This document shows, in pieces, positions 23,279 through 33,084 of a DNA stretch of 64,000 bases (the stretch's first letter is position 1; each line of letters begins with the position of its first letter). Below the pieces are notes generated by a model. It ran no database searches, was not told the origin of the DNA, and saw nothing but the letters and a program-made list of their open reading frames with translations. The DNA is from Streptomyces sp. NBC_01803 (GTDB lineage: Bacteria; Actinomycetota; Actinomycetes; Streptomycetales; Streptomycetaceae): positions 4,572,501-4,636,500 of the forward strand of contig NZ_CP109073.1 of the NCBI RefSeq assembly GCF_035917415.1. Direction: 5' to 3'. A program made the position numbers and the translations under genes.

Positions 23279-24145
23279 TCAGTCCTCGAAGCGCGCGGGC
23301 ACGTCGAACGCCGCCCGCCGCGTCGCCCGGCGCAGGGCCCGCAGCACGGTCGCGCCGCAGGTCAGGATGAGCACCACGGTGAGCAGCGCGCGCGGGACAT
23401 CCCAGCCGAGCGAGGTGGCCAGCACGTAGGAGAGGTAACGGGCCAGGTTCTCCGGCAGCGGATCGCCCGGGACGAACGAGATGCCGGTGCTCATGCCCGC
23501 GATGTAGGGCCAGCCCTGGAGGTTCATCACCAGGCCGTAGAACAGTGACGACACCGCGCCGTATGCCGCCAGCAGCGCCAGCTCGCCGCGCCCGCGCAGG
23601 GAACGCCCCCCCGGCAGCAGCCCGGCGCCCATCGTCACCCAGCCCATGGACAGCATCTGGAACGGCATCCACGGCCCGACCCCGCCGGTCAGCAGCGCGG
23701 ACGCGAACATCGACACCGAGCCGAGGACGAACCCGAAGCCCGGCCCCAGGACCCGGCCGGCGAGCACCATCAGGAAGAACATCGGCTGGAGCCCGGCCGT
23801 ACCCGCGCCGAGCGGGCGCAGCGCGGCACCGGCCGCCGCCAGCACGCCGAGCATCGCGACGGCCTTCGCGTCCAGCCCGGTGTCCGCGATGGTGGCCGCC
23901 GCGACGGCCAGCAGCAGCGGCAGCAGCAGCGCGAACAGCCAGGGCGCGTCCGAGGAGTGGGCGAGCCCGGACGACGAACTCGCCAGCAGCGGCCAGCCGA
24001 ACGCGACCACGCCGGTCGCCGAGACCAGCGCCAGCGCGGCGGCCGAGCGCGGGCCGAGCCGTACCGGCCGTACCGGTCGCGCCGGTCGCCGCGCTCCGGC
24101 CGCGGGACCGGTGGTGCCGGGACCGGTCAAGTCGGGATCCGTCAT
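23279..24145 (-). CDS. ECF transporter S component, probably corrinoid-specific
   Basis: A 288-residue membrane protein with about six helices after a Pro/Arg-rich N-terminal tail. It is the last gene of a five-gene operon and overlaps the ATPase stop by ATGA. ECF S components bind the vitamin substrate and dock on the shared EcfT/EcfA energising unit. Motifs such as GLQPMFFLMVLAGRVLGPGFGF resemble the substrate-binding half of the CbrT/related group. Because a cobalamin riboswitch heads the operon, the cargo is inferred to be cobalamin or a corrinoid precursor rather than cobalt alone. Confidence 0.8.
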   Translation of the reverse strand: MTDPDLTGPGTTGPAAGARRPARPVRPVRLGPRSAAALALVSATGVVAFGWPLLASSSSGLAHSSDAPWLFALLLPLLLAVAAATIADTGLDAKAVAMLGVLAAAGAALRPLGAGTAGLQPMFFLMVLAGRVLGPGFGFVLGSVSMFASALLTGGVGPWMPFQMLSMGWVTMGAGLLPGGRSLRGRGELALLAAYGAVSSLFYGLVMNLQGWPYIAGMSTGISFVPGDPLPENLARYLSYVLATSLGWDVPRALLTVVLILTCGATVLRALRRATRRAAFDVPARFED

Positions 24146-25767
24146 GCCGCGTCCGGGAGGCCGTCGAGGGCCGCTTGGATCTGATTCACCGTCAGCCATC
24201 CCTGCGGAGCCAGGATCTTGGCCACCTGCGGGGCGAACGACGGCGAGGCGACGACCACTTCGGCCGTGGGTCCATCCGCGACGACCTCGCCGTCCGCCAG
24301 TACCACGACGCGGTGGGCGAGTTCGGCGGCCAGCTCCACGTCGTGCGTGGCCAGCACGACGCAGTGCCCGGCCGCCGCCAACTCCCGCAGCACGCCCGCC
24401 AGGCGCGCCTTGGCGGCGTAGTCGAGGCCGCGCGTCGGCTCGTCCAGCAGCAGCACGGGCGGCGCGGCGGTGAGGATCACCGCCAGCGCGAGCGCCAGCC
24501 GTTGGCCCTCGGACAGGTCCCTGGGGTGGGTGTCGTCCGGCACTTCGGGCAGCAGCCGGGTCACCAGGGCCCGGCAGGTGCCGGGCGCGGCCCCGGCGTC
24601 GGTGTCGGCGCCCGCGCACTCGGCGGCCACCGTCTCGGCGAACAGCAGATCGCGCGGGTCCTGCGGCACCAGCCCGGCGTGCCGCAGGAGCCGGCCCGGC
24701 TCGGCGCGGTGCGGGACGACGCCGCCGATCAGCTCCACGCTCCCGGCGGCCGGCGGGTGCATGCCGACGAAGGTGCCCAACAGGGTGGACTTCCCGGCGC
24801 CGTTGCGGCCCATCAGCGCGACCGTCTCACCGGGCCGTACCAACAGGTCGACGCCGCGCAGGACTTCGACGCGGTCACGGCGAACGGACAGGCCGCGGAC
24901 GGTCAGCAGGGGCGCTCCGCGGGCGGGACCGTCCCCGCCAGCCGGCTCGTGGCCGACGAGGCGCTCGCGCAGCCGCCCGGCGGCGCGGCGGGCGTCCCGG
25001 ACCGACAGCGGCAACGGGTCCCAGCCCGCCAGCCGGCCCAGCGCCACCACGGGCGGGTGCACGGGGGAGCGGGCCATGATCGCGGCCGGTTCGCCCAGCA
25101 CGGGCGCGGCTCCCGGCGCGGGCAGCAGCAGCACCTGGTCGGCGTACTGCACGACGCGCTCCAGGCGGTGTTCGGCCATCAGGACCGTCGTCCCCAGGTC
25201 GTGCACGAGCCGCTGGAGCACGGCCAGCACCTCCTCGGCGGCGGCCGGGTCGAGCGCCGAGGTCGGCTCGTCCAGCACCAGCACGCGCGGGTGGAGGGTG
25301 AGCACCGAGCCGATGGCGACGCGCTGCTGCTGGCCGCCGGAGAGCGTGGCGATTGGCCGGTCGCGCAGCTCGGCCAGGCCCAGCAGGTCGAGCGTCTCCT
25401 CGACGCGCCGCCGCATGGTGGCCGGTGGCAGGCCCAACGACTCCATGCCGTAGGCGAGTTCGTCCTCGACCGTGTCGGTGACGAAGTGCGCGAGCGGGTC
25501 CTGCCCGACCGTTCCCACCACATCGGCGAGGTCGCGCGGCCGGTGGGTGCGGGTGTCGCGCCCGGCGACCGTGACCCGGCCGCGCAGCGTGCCGCCGGTG
25601 AAGTGCGGCACCAGCCCGGAGACGGTGCCCAGCAGCGTCGACTTGCCGACGCCGGACGGGCCGACGAGCAGGCACAGCTCGCCCTCGGGCACGGTCAGGT
25701 CCACCGGGCCCAGCGCGGGCGCTTCGGCGTCCGCGTAGGTGACGGAGACCTGGGAGAAACGGATCAC
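24142..25767 (-). CDS. ECF transporter fused A-A' ATPase
   Basis: A 541-residue protein with two complete ABC ATPase domains in one chain. Domain 1 (residues about 1-250) has Walker A LVGPSGVGKST, signature LSGGQQQRVAIG and Walker B VLVLDEPTSALD. Domain 2 (about 290-540) has Walker A LMGRNGAGKST, a degenerate signature DLSEGQRLALALA and Walker B VLLLDEPTRGLD. The fusion replaces separate EcfA and EcfA' subunits. The GTG start at 25767 follows GGAGG and overlaps the T-component stop, so the genes are translationally coupled. Confidence 0.93.
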   Translation of the reverse strand: MIRFSQVSVTYADAEAPALGPVDLTVPEGELCLLVGPSGVGKSTLLGTVSGLVPHFTGGTLRGRVTVAGRDTRTHRPRDLADVVGTVGQDPLAHFVTDTVEDELAYGMESLGLPPATMRRRVEETLDLLGLAELRDRPIATLSGGQQQRVAIGSVLTLHPRVLVLDEPTSALDPAAAEEVLAVLQRLVHDLGTTVLMAEHRLERVVQYADQVLLLPAPGAAPVLGEPAAIMARSPVHPPVVALGRLAGWDPLPLSVRDARRAAGRLRERLVGHEPAGGDGPARGAPLLTVRGLSVRRDRVEVLRGVDLLVRPGETVALMGRNGAGKSTLLGTFVGMHPPAAGSVELIGGVVPHRAEPGRLLRHAGLVPQDPRDLLFAETVAAECAGADTDAGAAPGTCRALVTRLLPEVPDDTHPRDLSEGQRLALALAVILTAAPPVLLLDEPTRGLDYAAKARLAGVLRELAAAGHCVVLATHDVELAAELAHRVVVLADGEVVADGPTAEVVVASPSFAPQVAKILAPQGWLTVNQIQAALDGLPDAA

Positions 25768-26903
25768 GGGCGGGCCTCCTCGGTACCGGAGATGACGCCG
25801 GGGCGCGGCGGGCGCGGGGCGACGAACGCGGGCAGCAGCCCCAGCAGGATCGCCGCGGCGGGCCCCGGCGGGAAGGCGGGCGCGGTCAGCGGAACGGCGG
25901 GCGGGTTGAGCGCGGCCGGGTCCGCGCCGCCGGTCCAGGCGACGAGCACGGTGACGGCCGCTCCCGAACCGGCCACCAGCCACGCCCGCGCGCCCCAGCG
26001 ATCGGGCCGGTACCGGGTGCGGGGGCTGCGCCGCCCGCCCAGCCACAGGCCGCCGAGGGCGGCCAGCAGCCCGGCGAGCAGCAGCGGCAGCCCGTAGCCG
26101 GCGCCCTCGGCCGCCAGCAGCCCGTACGATCCGGCGCACACGCCCAGCAGCCCGCTGAGGGTGAGCGCGGTGGTGGTGCGCCGGACGGCGGGCGGCACGT
26201 CGGCGGTCCGGCCGTAGCCGCGGGCGTCCATCGCGGCGGCCAGCGCGACCGACCGTTCCAGGGCGCCTTCCAGGACGGGCCGCGCGACGCCGATCACCGC
26301 GCGCGCCCCCCGGTCGGCGCGCCCGCGCAGCCGGCGCGCGGCCCGCATCCGCAGCAGATCGGCGACCAGCCGGGGCGCGAACGTCATGGCCACCACCACC
26401 GCGACGCCCATCTCGTACAGCGCGCCGGGCAGGGACTTCAGCAGGCGGGCGGGGTTGGCCAGGGCGTTGGCCGCGCCCAGGCAGATCAGCAGGGTCGCCA
26501 GCTTCAGCCCGTCCTCGAACGCGAACACCAGCGACTCGGCCGTCACCCGGCCGCCGATCCGCACGCCCCGCGCCCACGTCGGCAGCGGCACCTCGGGCAG
26601 CGTGAACACGACCGTCGTGCCGCCGATCGGGGAGCCCAGGACGACGGCGAAGAAGACCCGCATCGCGATCACCAGGGCGCCGAGGACGAGGAAGAAGCCG
26701 AAGGCGTACGCCCATGGCGCGTCGGTGCGGCGCGCGGCGACCACGTAGCCGGCGACGGTGATCAGCAGGGCCAGCAGCAGCGGGTTGGTGGTGCGGGACG
26801 CGGCGGCGGCCAGGCCGAGCGCCCACAGCCACCAGGCGCCCGCGTGCAGGGCGTTGCTCCGGGTGGCCAGGGGCGCGCGCGGCCGGGCGAGGAGGTTCGG
26901 CAT
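25764..26903 (-). CDS. ECF transporter T component (CbiQ-like)
   Basis: A 379-residue membrane protein. The first 260 residues match the EcfT/CbiQ fold, with five or six helices and the coupling motifs AMDARGYG (the Ala-Arg-Gly signature) near residue 225 and RMRAARRLRGRA just before it. The protein is longer than usual CbiQ proteins because of extra C-terminal helices. It transmits ATPase movement to the S component. It lies 2 bp after the SCO2322 stop and overlaps the ATPase start. Confidence 0.9.
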   Translation of the reverse strand: MPNLLARPRAPLATRSNALHAGAWWLWALGLAAAASRTTNPLLLALLITVAGYVVAARRTDAPWAYAFGFFLVLGALVIAMRVFFAVVLGSPIGGTTVVFTLPEVPLPTWARGVRIGGRVTAESLVFAFEDGLKLATLLICLGAANALANPARLLKSLPGALYEMGVAVVVAMTFAPRLVADLLRMRAARRLRGRADRGARAVIGVARPVLEGALERSVALAAAMDARGYGRTADVPPAVRRTTTALTLSGLLGVCAGSYGLLAAEGAGYGLPLLLAGLLAALGGLWLGGRRSPRTRYRPDRWGARAWLVAGSGAAVTVLVAWTGGADPAALNPPAVPLTAPAFPPGPAAAILLGLLPAFVAPRPPRPGVISGTEEARP

Positions 26904-26905
26904 GC

Positions 26906-27595
26906 CTACCGTCGGCGCCGGGCGCGTATCCAGGCCGCGACGGCCAGCGCGGCCACGGTCCCGGTGCCGGCCAGCACGGCGACGGCCGAGCCGCCGCCGT
27001 CGCCGCTGTCACTCGCGTCGCCGCCGCTCTCCTCGGAGAGCTGGTCGGCGCAGCCGCGGGCCGGGTAGCCGGCGATGGCGCAGAGCAGGGCGTCGGAGTT
27101 GTACCGCAGCGGCTCGGCGACCCCGGCCAGCGCCTCGGCGGCCGTGGCGCCGCCGTCGACCTCGGCGCACTCGGTCCGCGCCTCGGGCGGTGTCTCGCTC
27201 CCCGGCGCGTCCCCGGGGGTGCCGAAGTCGATGACGAGGGCGACCCGTTCGCCGCCGCCCCCGTCGGCACCCTCACCCCCGTCGCCGCAGACAGCCCCGA
27301 AGTCGCCCGCCCCGCGCGGGACCCGGGTGTCGGACGACTCGGCGCTCACGGCGAAACGGAACCCGAGCACGTCACCGTCCCGGACCCGGAGCGTCCCCGG
27401 CCCCTGCGTGGCGTACGCCCACTGCCGCTCGTCGCCGTCCCAGGTCCAGAAGGACCAGTACCGGTACGCGGAGTCGTCGGCCGACGCGGGCGCCGCCCCG
27501 AGCCCGGTGAGGAGCGCGGCGAGACAGAGCGGTACGAGCGCGGCGGCTCTGCCGGGTATCGCGGTCGGCCGCCGGGCCGGTGGGGGAGGGGTCAT
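26906..27595 (-). CDS. SCO2322-family secreted, membrane-anchored protein
   Basis: A 229-residue protein with an N-terminal signal peptide (residues about 15-45, ending PASADDSAY). A beta-rich core contains YRYWSFWTWDGD and WAYATQGPGTLRVRDGDVLGFRFA. A Ser/Gly/Asp linker, a C-terminal hydrophobic helix and an RARRRR tail anchor it to the membrane. Cys pairs (CGDGG/TEC and LLCAIAGYPARGC) suggest disulfides. The G..V.DGD.L.F pattern resembles the DUF4430/intrinsic-factor beta-domain. It overlaps the upstream toroid gene by ATGA and sits inside the riboswitch-controlled ECF operon. Confidence 0.8.
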   Translation of the reverse strand: MTPPPPARRPTAIPGRAAALVPLCLAALLTGLGAAPASADDSAYRYWSFWTWDGDERQWAYATQGPGTLRVRDGDVLGFRFAVSAESSDTRVPRGAGDFGAVCGDGGEGADGGGGERVALVIDFGTPGDAPGSETPPEARTECAEVDGGATAAEALAGVAEPLRYNSDALLCAIAGYPARGCADQLSEESGGDASDSGDGGGSAVAVLAGTGTVAALAVAAWIRARRRR

Positions 27596-28959
27596 GCCGG
27601 GTCGCCGGTCCTTCGGGCGCGGGCCCGCAGGCTGAGGACGACGCCGATCGCTATGCCGGCGATCAACCCCACGGCCAGGACCCAGGTCAGGGCGCCGGCG
27701 CCGGAGTCGTCGTCCGAGGCGTCCGCGTCCGCCGCGCCGTCGGCGCCGCCGGGGGTCTCGTCGGGGGCCGGGCCCAGCGCGTTCAGCTGCTCGATCAGGT
27801 CGGCGCCGCCGAAGTCCTCGGGGGAGACGTCGCCGGCGTGGGCGGCCAGCACCAGCATGCCCAGGGACGCCGGGCTGTTCGCCAGATCCGGCCACTCGCC
27901 GTGGTGCTCGCCCAGCCACTCCAGGGCGCCCTGGCGGGCCTCCTCGTGGCCGCCCGCCGAGAGGGCGATCACGGCCCTGGCCGTGGTGGCGTAGTCCGGC
28001 TGCTCCTCGCCGCCGGGAGGGACGGAGACGAGGTGCTGCTCGCCGTCCGCCAGCAGGCCCGCCAGCCGGGCCGCGCCCGCCGAGGCCGAGGCGACGCGCG
28101 GCGCGGAGGCGTCCTCACCGGCGGCCTCGTCCGCCTCGTCCGTCTCCTCCGCCTCGTCCGCCTCGCCCGTCTCCTCCGCCTCGTCCCCGTTCCCGTCGCA
28201 GTCCAGCGGCGCGACCGGCGCCGCCGTCACGCTCTCGGGGGCGACGAGCAGGCCGCTGCCGTAGGAGGCGAGCACCGCGTCCACCGTCGCCAGGTCGCTC
28301 GCGAACAGCTCGCCGGTCGTCTCGTCCGGCTGCCACGCGAACGCCCCGCGCTCCTCCGCCGGCGCGTCGCAGCCGAGCTGGAGCCCGGCCAGCGCGTCGA
28401 ACGGGGAGTTGCCGTCGCGGACCACCTCGGCCGGGTCCTCGCCCGCCGCCGCGAACGCGCCGACCACCACGCCGGTGGAGTCCGCGTCGGTCGCGCCGCC
28501 GGGGTTGTAGCTCCAGCCGCCGTCCTCGTTCTGCACGCCGGTCAGCCAGGTCAGCCCGGACGAGACCGCCTCGTCGTGGCCGCCGAGCGCGGCCAGCGCC
28601 TGGACGGCCAGCGCCGTGGCGTTGGAGTCGGCGGCCGTGACGTCGTCGCACGGCGCGGACACGTCCGCGCGGAAGGAGAGGAACGAGCCGTCCGCGCACT
28701 GCTGGCCGAGCAGCCAGTCCACCGCCTCGTCGGCCGGCGCGTAGCCGGCCGCGTCCTGCGCCAGGAGGGCGATCGACTGCCGCCACACCCCGTCGAACTG
28801 CGGGTCGGCCGCACCGAAGAGCGCGTCGGACGACGGGTCGTCCGGGTCGGCGGCGAGCGCGGCCGGGGCCGTGGCCGTGAGCAGGACGGCGGCGCCGGCG
28901 AGCGCCGCGGCGGTGTGTCGCGCGCGGCGCGCGGTGGGCGCGGGGCGGGGGTGGGACAC
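27592..28959 (-). CDS. Secreted alpha/alpha-toroid (prenyltransferase/squalene oxidase repeat) protein, possible cobalamin binder
   Basis: The protein has 455 residues from a GTG at 28959. A signal peptide ends near APAALAADPD. Squalene-oxidase-type repeats follow, visible as AVDWLLGQQCADGSFLSF, GLTWLTGVQNEDGGWSYN and GALEWLGEHHGEWPDL. An acidic low-complexity loop (EEAEETGEADEAEE-like) interrupts them, and the protein ends with a transmembrane helix and RARARRTG. The repeat fold is that of the alpha6/alpha6 barrel of transcobalamin and intrinsic factor. As first gene after a cobalamin riboswitch, with an ECF transporter downstream, a role in capturing corrinoid at the cell surface is a reasonable inference. 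The acidic loop may vary between strains. Confidence 0.8.
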   Translation of the reverse strand: MSHPRPAPTARRARHTAAALAGAAVLLTATAPAALAADPDDPSSDALFGAADPQFDGVWRQSIALLAQDAAGYAPADEAVDWLLGQQCADGSFLSFRADVSAPCDDVTAADSNATALAVQALAALGGHDEAVSSGLTWLTGVQNEDGGWSYNPGGATDADSTGVVVGAFAAAGEDPAEVVRDGNSPFDALAGLQLGCDAPAEERGAFAWQPDETTGELFASDLATVDAVLASYGSGLLVAPESVTAAPVAPLDCDGNGDEAEETGEADEAEETDEADEAAGEDASAPRVASASAGAARLAGLLADGEQHLVSVPPGGEEQPDYATTARAVIALSAGGHEEARQGALEWLGEHHGEWPDLANSPASLGMLVLAAHAGDVSPEDFGGADLIEQLNALGPAPDETPGGADGAADADASDDDSGAGALTWVLAVGLIAGIAIGVVLSLRARARRTGDPA

Positions 28960-29079
28960 GCGGATGCCTTTCGCTGTGCTGGTCCGCCGGCACGGCTGAC
29001 CACCACGGCGCGGCGACGCGCTGCGGGGCACCGGGCTCAGCGCCGTACTCCTCGACGGTGCCGGTCACCGGGCGGGCGA

Positions 29080-29215
29080 CCGAACGGCCAGTGCGGCCCG
29101 CGGGCAGGCGCTCCGGCTCGCGGGGCCGGCCGCTCGTCCAGGGCGGTGCGGCTCCGCTCACGGTTGCGGGTCAGCGCCGGATTCGCACCGGCTTCCCCCG
29201 CCGCGGGCGAACTGA
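29080..29215 (-). ncRNA. Cobalamin riboswitch
   Basis: Read on the minus strand, the conserved core appears in order: GGGAAGCCGGTGCGAATCC, then GCTGACCCGCAACCGT, then the B12 box GAGCCGGAGCGCCTGCC. These are the invariant parts of the adenosylcobalamin-binding class. The element ends about 120 bases before the GTG of the toroid gene, leaving room for an expression platform. It should switch the whole five-gene operon off when cobalamin is abundant. Its 5' end abuts the 3' end of the TetR-type gene. Confidence 0.95.
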
Positions 29216-29221
29216 TGCCGG

Positions 29222-29833
29222 TCACTCTATCGGCGCGGAAGAGCGGCTCACGAGGCGGCAGGCCGTTTCGATGTCCTGGTGGGCCTGGGCGAGCGTGATG
29301 TTCCCGGACAGCCAGTAGACCAGCGTCGACTGCCAGGTGTGCGCGATGACCCGGAGGGCGCTCAGGCTCCGCTCGGTCTCCTCCTCGGACAGGCCCGCGG
29401 CGTCCCGCAGCAGCGCGGCGGTCACCCGCGACACGGCGCTGACCTCCGCCCGCACCGAGCCGTCGGCGAACAGCAGGGCCCGCAGCATCGCCTCGGCCAG
29501 GCGCGGCTCGCGCTGGTGGGCGCGGAAGGCGCGCTTGAGGGTGCGCACCAGCCGGTCCCCGGGGTCGCGCTCGGTCAACGGGCGCGCCCGCAACGTCTCG
29601 TGGAGCTGCTCCAGCTGGTCGCACAGGACGGCCACGAGCAGGTGGATCTTGGACGGGAAGTACCGGTAGAGGGTGCCCAGGGCCACCTGGGCGCCCTCGG
29701 CGACCTCGCGCATCTGCACGGCGTCGAAGCCGCCGGCCGCCGCGAGCGCGGTGCTGGCGTCGAGGATGCGTCGCCTGCGGGCCCGCTGCCGCTCGGTGCG
29801 CGCGGGAGCGGAGGGCTGGGGTCGGGTCGTCAT
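29222..29833 (-). CDS. TetR-family regulator, KstR-like
   Basis: The protein has 203 residues from the ATG at 29833, with GGGAG upstream. The N-terminal helix-turn-helix reads ERQRARRRRILDASTALAAAGG, then QMREVAEGAQVALGTLYRYFPSK. The C-terminal ligand domain has the R..AFRAHQREPRLAEAMLRALLFAD pattern of KstR, the sterol-catabolism repressor. In-frame ATGs exist upstream (29881, 29890), but a perfect dyad (29860-29875) would then lie in the coding region. Placing the start at 29833 leaves that dyad in the promoter. It lies divergently from the glycosyltransferase operon. Confidence 0.88.
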   Translation of the reverse strand: MTTRPQPSAPARTERQRARRRRILDASTALAAAGGFDAVQMREVAEGAQVALGTLYRYFPSKIHLLVAVLCDQLEQLHETLRARPLTERDPGDRLVRTLKRAFRAHQREPRLAEAMLRALLFADGSVRAEVSAVSRVTAALLRDAAGLSEEETERSLSALRVIAHTWQSTLVYWLSGNITLAQAHQDIETACRLVSRSSAPIE

Positions 29834-29859
29834 GACGGGCGCTCCCGAGGCAGGCTCTG

Positions 29860-29875
29860 AAACTGGTTGCAGTTT
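29860..29875. promoter_or_regulatory. Dyad AAACTG-N4-CAGTTT upstream of the TetR gene
   Basis: A perfect inverted repeat of 6 + 4 + 6 bp, AT-rich against the background, 27 bp before the chosen TetR start. Its size and place fit autoregulation by a TetR protein. Confidence 0.5.
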
Positions 29876-29892
29876 ACTCATCGCGCCCACGT

Positions 29893-31288: not shown

Positions 31289-32014
31289 GTGCTGACCGTG
31301 GACTTCACCCGATTCCCGCTGGCGCCGGGGGACCGGGTCCTCGACTTGGGCTGTGGCGAGGGCCGGCACGCGTTCGAGTGCTACCGGCGCGGTGCGCACG
31401 TCGTCGCCCTGGACCGCAGCGCGAAGGACGTGGGCCATGTCGCCTCCTGGCTGGCCGCCATGAAGGAGGTCGGCGAGGCCCCCGCGGGTGCCTCCGCCAC
31501 CGCGATCGAGGGCGACGCCCTCGCGCTGCCCTTCCCGGACGACAGCTTCGACGCGCTGATCGTCTCCGAGGTCATGGAGCACGTGCCCGACGACAAGGGC
31601 CTGCTCGCCGAGGCCGTCCGCGTGCTGCGCCCCGGCGGCCGGATCGCCGTCTCCGTGCCGCGCTACGGCCCCGAGCGCGTCTGCTGGGCCCTGTCCGACG
31701 CCTACCACGAGGTCGAGGGCGGTCACATCCGCATCTACCGCGCCGAGGAGCTGCTCGACCGGCTCCGCGAGGCGGGCCTGCGCCCCTACGGCACCCACCA
31801 CGCCCACGCGCTGCACGCGCCCTACTGGTGGCTCAAATGCGCCTTCGGCGTCGACAACGACCAGGCGCTTCCCGTCCGCGCCTACCACAAGCTGCTCGTC
31901 TGGGACATCATGAAGCGCCCGCTGGCGACGCGCGTCGCCGAGCAGGCACTCAACCCACTGCTCGGCAAGAGCTTCGTGGCCTACGCCACCAAGCCCCGCC
32001 TGGAGCGTGCGTGA
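31289..32014 (+). CDS. Class I SAM-dependent methyltransferase
   Basis: The protein has 241 residues. Motif I is RVLDLGCGEGRHAFE, motif II is VVALDRS, and motif IV is FDALIVSEVMEHV, giving a Methyltransf_11 domain. The GTG at 31289 follows GAAGGAG at ideal spacing. The C-terminal half (YWWLKCAFGVDNDQALPVRAYHKLL) is aromatic and may bind a lipid or sugar-lipid. It sits between a GT4 enzyme and a toroid protein with GTGA coupling, so all three probably act on one substrate. Confidence 0.9.
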   Translation: MLTVDFTRFPLAPGDRVLDLGCGEGRHAFECYRRGAHVVALDRSAKDVGHVASWLAAMKEVGEAPAGASATAIEGDALALPFPDDSFDALIVSEVMEHVPDDKGLLAEAVRVLRPGGRIAVSVPRYGPERVCWALSDAYHEVEGGHIRIYRAEELLDRLREAGLRPYGTHHAHALHAPYWWLKCAFGVDNDQALPVRAYHKLLVWDIMKRPLATRVAEQALNPLLGKSFVAYATKPRLERA

Positions 32015-33084
32015 CAAGCCCGGAGCGCACCGAACGGCTCGCCCTGCCCGGAGTCCTCACCGCGGCCGAGGCCGCCGCCACCGCCGCCGGGATCGCCGCG
32101 ACCCAGCGCCCGGACGGCGCCATCCCGTGGTTCCGCGGCCACCACCTCGACCCCTGGGACCATGTCGAGGCCGCCATGGCCCTGGACAGCGCCGGCGAGC
32201 ACGAACGCGCCGCCGCCGCGTACGAGTGGCTGGCCCGCCACCAGAACGCCGACGGCTCCTGGTACGCCGCCTACGCCGACGGCGACGCCGACCAGACCAT
32301 CGACCTGGGCAAGGAGAGCAACTTCTGCGCCTACCCGGCCGTCGGCGTGCTCCACCACTACCTCGCCACCGGGGACGAGCTGTTCCGCCGCCGGATGTGG
32401 CCGGTGGTCTCCGCCGCCGTCGAGTTCGTCCTCGCGCTCCAGCAGGACGGCGGTCAGCTCGGCTGGCGCCGCGACCCCGACGGCACCGCCGTGCCCGAGG
32501 CCCTGCTCACCGGCTCGTCCTCCATCTACCAGGCGCTGCGCTGCGCCCTCGCCCTCGCCGAGCTGGAAGGCGCCCCGCAGCCCGACTGGGAGCTGGCCGC
32601 CGGACGCCTCGGCCACGCGGTGCGCCGCCACCCCGAGCGTTTTCTCGACAAGTCCCGGTACTCGATGGACTGGTACTACCCGATCCTTGGCGGCGCCCTG
32701 TGCGGCGCGGAGGCGCGGGCCAGGCTGGAGAGGGACTGGGACGCCTTCGTCGTGCCCGAACTCGGCGTGCGTTGCGTGCTCAACCGACCGTGGGTCACCG
32801 GCGGCGAGAGCGCCGAGCTGGCCATCGCGCTGTGGGCGGCGGGCCTGCCCGAGCGGGCCACCGACATCCTGCGCTGGATCGGCCATCTGCGCGCCGAGGA
32901 CGGCCTGTACTGGACGGGGTACGTCTACGCCGACGACGCCGTGTGGCCGACCGAGCTGACGAGCTGGACCGCCGGGTCCGTGCTGCTGGCCGTGGCCGCG
33001 CTCACCGGCGACGAGCCCACCAGGGCCGTCTTCGGCGGCGCCCGCCTGCCGCGCGGCCTCGAACCCGACTGCTGCCGGGACTGA
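32011..33084 (+). CDS. Alpha/alpha-toroid protein, annotated elsewhere as prenyltransferase
   Basis: A 357-residue cytoplasmic protein made of helical-hairpin repeats. Examples are AATQRPDGAIPWFRGHHLDPWDH, WLARHQNADGSWYAAY and VLALQQDGGQLGWRRDPDG, the Q-x-DG-x-W type of squalene-cyclase/prenyltransferase-beta folds. No zinc site of protein prenyltransferases and no DxDD motif of cyclases is seen. A glycoside-hydrolase-like or binding role is therefore as likely as transfer of a prenyl group. The GTG start overlaps the methyltransferase stop. Confidence 0.78.
   Translation: MTSPERTERLALPGVLTAAEAAATAAGIAATQRPDGAIPWFRGHHLDPWDHVEAAMALDSAGEHERAAAAYEWLARHQNADGSWYAAYADGDADQTIDLGKESNFCAYPAVGVLHHYLATGDELFRRRMWPVVSAAVEFVLALQQDGGQLGWRRDPDGTAVPEALLTGSSSIYQALRCALALAELEGAPQPDWELAAGRLGHAVRRHPERFLDKSRYSMDWYYPILGGALCGAEARARLERDWDAFVVPELGVRCVLNRPWVTGGESAELAIALWAAGLPERATDILRWIGHLRAEDGLYWTGYVYADDAVWPTELTSWTAGSVLLAVAALTGDEPTRAVFGGARLPRGLEPDCCRD

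Follow-up and report, generated by a model that had tools for sequence, protein, structure and literature searches.

A Streptomyces operon that probably combines an ECF-type corrinoid importer with surface proteins of transcobalamin architecture

The operon and its riboswitch

The window, a stretch of 64,000 nucleotides from Streptomyces sp. NBC_01803, carries on its minus strand five ORFs in the order toroid, SCO2322 protein, EcfT, EcfAA' and EcfS (Table 1), joined in turn by an ATGA overlap, a 2-nt gap, a GTGA overlap and a second ATGA overlap. The original prediction described five coupled genes behind a cobalamin riboswitch; coordinates, junctions and families all agree with it, the riboswitch being a weak match. 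The RF00174 match had an E-value of 4.5e-5 when 651 nt were searched and of 9.7e-5 in a search of the whole genome, where it was the weakest of four, and it is missing from the run at the gathering score because its 27.6 bits lie below that score (31.5). The conserved riboswitch core CCGGTGCGAATCCGGCGCTGACCCGCAAC is present. Two of the other three cobalamin riboswitches of this genome adjoin corrinoid-related genes. One of the three lies by a CbiB/CobD-like gene, which CobN and cobaltochelatase follow, and another by the gene for a ribonucleotide reductase alpha subunit; the protein after the third, for which no NCBIfam match was found at E 1e-10, is presumably CbtA-like.

Table 1. Features of the operon in the window
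Feature	Coordinates	Strand	Match
Cobalamin riboswitch (core aptamer part)	29110..29195	-	RF00174, 27.6 bits
SCO2321-family secreted, C-terminally membrane-anchored protein, predicted alpha6/alpha6 toroid, GTG start	27592..28959	-	
SCO2322-family secreted, C-terminally anchored beta protein, circularly permuted DUF4430-like domain	26906..27595	-	NF040672, 184.8 bits
Beta-domain half B (YRYW..W.Y..GP....DGDVxGFRF), first in the window protein	27341..27472	-	
Beta-domain half A (VALVIDFG...ATAAEAL...LLCAIAGYP..GC), second in the window, first in other lineages seen	27041..27256	-	
EcfT, CbiQ family, transmembrane coupling protein	25764..26903	-	PF02361, 31.4 bits
EcfA-A' fused ATPase, two ABC domains	24142..25767	-	PF00005, two stretches
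EcfS substrate-binding membrane component	23279..24145	-	PF12822, 27.7 bits, under cut-off 30.7

The assignment of the last three genes to an EcfT, a fused EcfA-A' and an S component also stands: EcfT exceeds the Pfam cut-off of 25 for CbiQ, ABC_tran is matched in two stretches of EcfAA', and EcfS reaches ECF_trnsprt below the cut-off, at E 3.3e-6. EcfT, two ATPase domains and an S component lie within one operon, the trait of ECF transporters with a dedicated module (group I).

In genomes with this EcfS family, a cobalamin riboswitch lies 3.4-9.0 kb upstream of EcfS on the same strand at 47 of 77 places (75 genomes), a count that includes G074, where no riboswitch was matched. Of the 30 places without an upstream element, some are on short contigs and 11 belong to genomes without any riboswitch match; the multi-genome search used stricter filters, under which weak elements can be lost. 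Within Streptomyces the element is patchy, being present in five of eight other genomes, three times below the gathering score, and the remaining three loci showed no riboswitch at E 0.5.

The two surface proteins

Signal peptides and anchors of both surface proteins were read from sequence and model. The toroid protein scores 442.5 bits against SCO2321_fam of NCBIfam (cut-off 300), and its Pfam matches at E 1 are confined to cyclase, prenyltransferase and TED families. Structure prediction, proposed as a check on the suggested alpha/alpha toroid, upheld it: in a structure search the model matches solved alpha6/alpha6-barrel proteins, and the modelled fold is accordingly that of an alpha6/alpha6 barrel. 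Squalene cyclases are the closest relatives of known structure, and most of the nearest relatives are enzymes; no transcobalamin chain is among the matches listed for the toroid. Identity as a terpene cyclase was considered and rejected. In the window's toroid family, 57 of 59 aligned sequences have Asn in place of the middle Asp of DxDD, the catalytic-acid motif of squalene-hopene cyclase. By eye, a DxDD-like string (DPDD) occurs in 6 of 18 aligned distant toroids. Nine distant toroid ORFs were scanned: SLH domains are present in two, CWB2 in one, and an LPXTG motif, below threshold, in one.

The second surface protein exceeds the cut-off of 85 for SCO2322_fam, a family matched in 35 of 246 Actinomycetota genomes (in 10 above cut-off). 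It had been credited with a DUF4430-like pattern, and this claim stands in part: the pattern is present and the un-permuted profile fits DUF4430, but the native protein matches no Pfam family at E 1, hence not DUF4430 directly, and its halves are swapped. By eye, half A (V-V-D...G...C-I-G) precedes half B (W-W...W...G...GW) in 22 of 22 distant proteins, 21 of which were aligned, and at locus L036 positions 61-140 of the SCO2322_fam model come before positions 5-61. The order B before A was found in the window, in Streptomyces relatives and in one genome of another family (L035). In genome G162 the two orders coexist, in separate operons (L067 and L054).

Profile comparisons, whose E-values hold for single profile pairs, were made with a canonical profile of the A-B-order beta proteins of related operons. 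Once re-ordered to A-B, SCO2322 aligns to it over 100 columns (99.5%, E 6e-23), as against only 37 columns in native order (E 1.3e-13). Against DUF4430, the canonical profile aligns over 73 columns (90.8%, E 1.2e-6), un-permuted SCO2322 over 74 (73.8%, E 2.9e-5) and native-order SCO2322 over 46 (64.7%, E 6.2e-5). In each of three profile comparisons, the real score was higher than that of all 100 column shuffles. After near-identical rows had been dropped, the canonical set comprised 111 of 158 domains and the DUF4430 set 23; in an earlier comparison, built from fewer sequences, the links to DUF4430 were weaker (60% for the canonical and 75% for the un-permuted profile). A newer Pfam family, PF28005, absent from the Pfam copy used, appears as precomputed annotation on matches of both beta-domain searches. 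Searched against PDB sequences, the canonical profile gave one implausible match (E 0.027) and the bacterial DUF4430 profile one weak match, 3u7z (E 0.34). The AF2 model of SCO2322, which is confident through most of the domain (average pLDDT 79.5; 82-96 in most domain blocks), had no useful PDB match, a result that counts neither way because the aligners are believed to keep chain order and could miss a permuted fold. On these comparisons, the SCO2322 beta domain is a circular permutant of a DUF4430-type domain, with its halves in the order B-A.

In a midpoint-rooted drawing of the EcfS tree (70 rows), the permuted form occupies 10 rows, which are interspersed with canonical ones, and the best tree requires two order changes; the permuted form may have a single origin. 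At L037 two beta domains lie in tandem; permutation by way of duplication calls for an intermediate of this sort.

Fusions and co-occurrence

In the window the toroid and the beta domain are encoded by separate genes and do not share one chain. At five other loci (L037, L040, L052, L235 and L238) a toroid is followed by a canonical beta domain in one ORF; by eye, the L235 and L238 products look secreted and consist of two domains and a C-terminal anchor, and the L037 protein ends in cell-wall binding repeats (CWB2). EcfS and toroid are joined in one ORF at a further four (L224, L227, L230 and L250). The one-chain toroid-beta proteins of these relatives suggest a bacterial counterpart of the animal B12 carrier.

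The EcfS family of the window (A1) occurs in 96 of 246 Actinomycetota genomes, and Pfam DUF4430 in 48 of 246. DUF4430 or SCO2322 is found in 79 of the 96 genomes with this EcfS and in 1 of the 150 others (Fisher p 3.6e-46, kinship ignored), and within 8 kb at 66 of 98 EcfS places, that is, of 103 rows minus five fragments (four of G032 and one of G183). In the EcfS tree, the DUF4430-bearing rows form one side of a branch with support 100/100, on which a common order is DUF4430, EcfT, EcfAA', EcfS, toroid. At 58 loci the available sequence extends over more than 5.5 kb on the upstream side of EcfS; of these, 54 have a beta protein, 41 a toroid and 40 both, leaving 14 with a beta protein and no toroid, one with a toroid and no beta protein, and three with neither; the same-strand rule of this count misses L055, where toroid and beta protein lie beside EcfS on the opposite strand. 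The set of 70 loci is non-random (L035-L067 came from SCO2322 matches, L211-L230 from DUF4430 near EcfS, and L231-L250 are mostly the rest; L042, L050 and L057, having no EcfS match, were excluded), and the genome-wide counts outweigh the locus counts because the loci were partly picked for beta matches. A scan of genome contigs was uninformative on spread, its best 80 of 590 matches all being Streptomycetaceae.

Function of the operon and alternative explanations

We regard it as probable, by a fair margin of belief, that the operon encodes a dedicated ECF-type importer of a corrinoid (vitamin B12 or a precursor), together with capture proteins at the surface whose architecture is that of transcobalamin. 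The earlier reading as a split transcobalamin plus ECF importer gains support from the computed toroid model, the profile link that emerges after un-permuting, the position in the operon and the toroid-beta fusions. When cobalamin is scarce, the riboswitch, to judge from the element itself, would permit expression of the operon. The anchored alpha6/alpha6 toroid and the anchored DUF4430-type beta protein would stand outside the membrane and jointly enclose the corrinoid, in the way that transcobalamin and intrinsic factor use their alpha and beta domains, there on a single chain; we infer the binding, the joint site and the subsequent transfer of the captured corrinoid to EcfS. EcfT and EcfAA' would then power inward transport through EcfS.

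Riboswitches, gene context and pathway gaps suggest a corrinoid as the substrate. A CbiC match is absent in 78 of the 96 genomes with this EcfS, as against 92 of the 150 others (Fisher p 0.001, kinship ignored), and 77 of the 78 have a B12-binding domain, a trait that discriminates little, being present in 239 of 246 genomes. The genome of the window has CbiC, so the importer would there serve salvage. Uptake of cobalt ions, or of some small precursor (a lower-ligand base, for example), in place of a whole corrinoid is improbable to our minds. EcfT does belong to the CbiQ family of cobalt transport, and cobalt transport genes may also stand behind cobalamin riboswitches. Yet no cobalt component was found for EcfS in Pfam (E 1) or NCBIfam (E 0.1), cobalt by itself would be insufficient for the 78 genomes without a CbiC match, and large extracellular domains seem ill-suited to a metal ion. 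Compared with PDB sequences, the EcfS profile met no solved S component, giving two weak unrelated matches (E 1.5 and 4.9).

The main rival is a toroid with another task: the transporter would still import a corrinoid with the beta protein as capture partner, and the toroid would be an enzyme acting on a lipid, a glycan or a corrinoid side chain, or else a wall scaffold. The mostly enzymatic nearest relatives, the 14 of 54 beta-bearing loci without a toroid and the DPDD string of some distant toroids speak for this; against it, the family to which the window toroid belongs has lost the cyclase acid, and fusions both to the beta domain and to EcfS suit a binding partner. We hold it to be the less likely explanation, at perhaps a third of the weight given to a toroid that takes part in capture. 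Any single genome could give the appearance of an operon shared with unrelated passengers, but the distribution of DUF4430 or SCO2322 over the 246 genomes, albeit counted with kinship ignored, and the nine fusion loci led us to reject chance neighbours as scarcely credible for the toroid and beta protein.

Relation to known B12 carriers and transporters

The alpha domain of the animal B12 carriers is an alpha6/alpha6 barrel. Transcobalamin, haptocorrin and intrinsic factor combine it with a DUF4430-type beta domain, the pair of folds proposed here, and the alpha-then-beta order on one chain of transcobalamin recurs in the five relatives with fused proteins. In the window, by contrast, the two are separate membrane-anchored proteins, the beta domain is circularly permuted, the toroid is nearer in sequence to squalene cyclases, and the neighbour of the genes is an ECF pump and not an endocytosis receptor. 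The link to the animal carriers is drawn from domain architecture and DUF4430, which one report places at the C-terminus of TCN proteins (PMC4350170).

Among bacteria, ECF transporters have to our knowledge been described without extracellular carriers, and Rodionov et al. reportedly predicted B12-linked ECF transporters of Actinobacteria from riboswitches in 2009. The surface B12 binders of Bacteroides have other folds and belong to an outer-membrane TonB system. ECF-CbrT of Lactobacillus delbrueckii is an ECF transporter for cobalamin and cobinamide; CbrT and other S components use one ECF module in common, and the accessible part of its description mentions no surface binding protein (PMC5997447). 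BtuG and DUF4465 proteins of Bacteroides are reported to capture B12 at the cell surface (PMC6143338, PMC13398666). Neither the gene arrangement nor the permutation was found described in the titles and abstracts of the open-access literature, a scope with subscription papers mostly outside it and therefore weak evidence of absence.

One may speculate, although we think it rather unlikely, that a bacterial toroid-beta surface protein feeding ECF importers was the ancestor of the animal B12 carriers, or goes back to one and the same ancestor as they do; in Streptomyces this protein would have been split and its beta domain circularly permuted by way of a tandem form like that of L037.

One family of ECF transporters seems to be accompanied by a surface carrier in two parts that has the architecture of transcobalamin. 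Should this hold, it would explain how many corrinoid-dependent Actinomycetota without a synthesis pathway capture B12, would assign a function to the SCO2321 and SCO2322 families as well as to numerous DUF4430 proteins of bacteria, and would provide the human B12 carriers with a relative among bacteria.

Variant architectures of the transporter and proposed capture proteins

At three loci the whole ECF transporter (EcfT, both ATPase domains and EcfS) appears to be a single chain of about 1010–1080 residues, and a gene for a beta-domain protein adjoins it. At four others, EcfS is fused to the toroid. Both beta-domain orders can occur in one genome: G162 carries two operons of this type (L067 and L054), one with a permuted and the other with a canonical beta domain.

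Coordinates of variant and flanking genes
Feature	Location	Strand	Remark
EcfT + two ATPase domains + EcfS	L231:3037-6075	-	apparent single polypeptide
EcfT + two ATPase domains + EcfS	L234:2617-5862	-	apparent single polypeptide
EcfT + two ATPase domains + EcfS	L059:3608-6661	-	apparent single polypeptide
EcfS + toroid	L224:9409-11442	+	single open reading frame
EcfS + toroid	L250:9409-11337	+	single open reading frame
EcfS + toroid	L227:922-2895	-	single open reading frame
EcfS + toroid	L230:1420-3651	-	single open reading frame
PQQ_2/DUF5719 ORF	L215:4549-7251	+	domain regions
PQQ_2/DUF5719 ORF	L216:4933-7491	+	domain regions
PQQ_2/DUF5719 ORF	L218:4753-7359	+	domain regions
PQQ_2/DUF5719 ORF	L249:1706-4621	+	domain regions
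PQQ_2/DUF5719 ORF	L214:7303-9951	-	domain regions
TetR-like regulator gene	window 29222-29890	-	read by eye
Second toroid-like ORF	window 31378-33084	+	read by eye

Reading the window by eye, we noted a TetR-like gene on the same strand as the cobalamin riboswitch, its end immediately preceding it. The same reading shows another ORF at most about 4 kb from the operon, following one glycosyltransferase-like and one methyltransferase-like gene; its repeats (QRPDGAI, QNADGSW) look toroid-like.

At five loci, the riboswitch is followed by a protein of 850–970 residues, counted over the whole ORF, and then by DUF4430. This protein contains regions of the PQQ_2 beta-propeller and DUF5719 types. It is reminiscent of BtuG, the surface B12 binder of Bacteroides, and is a possible third capture protein beside the toroid and beta proteins.
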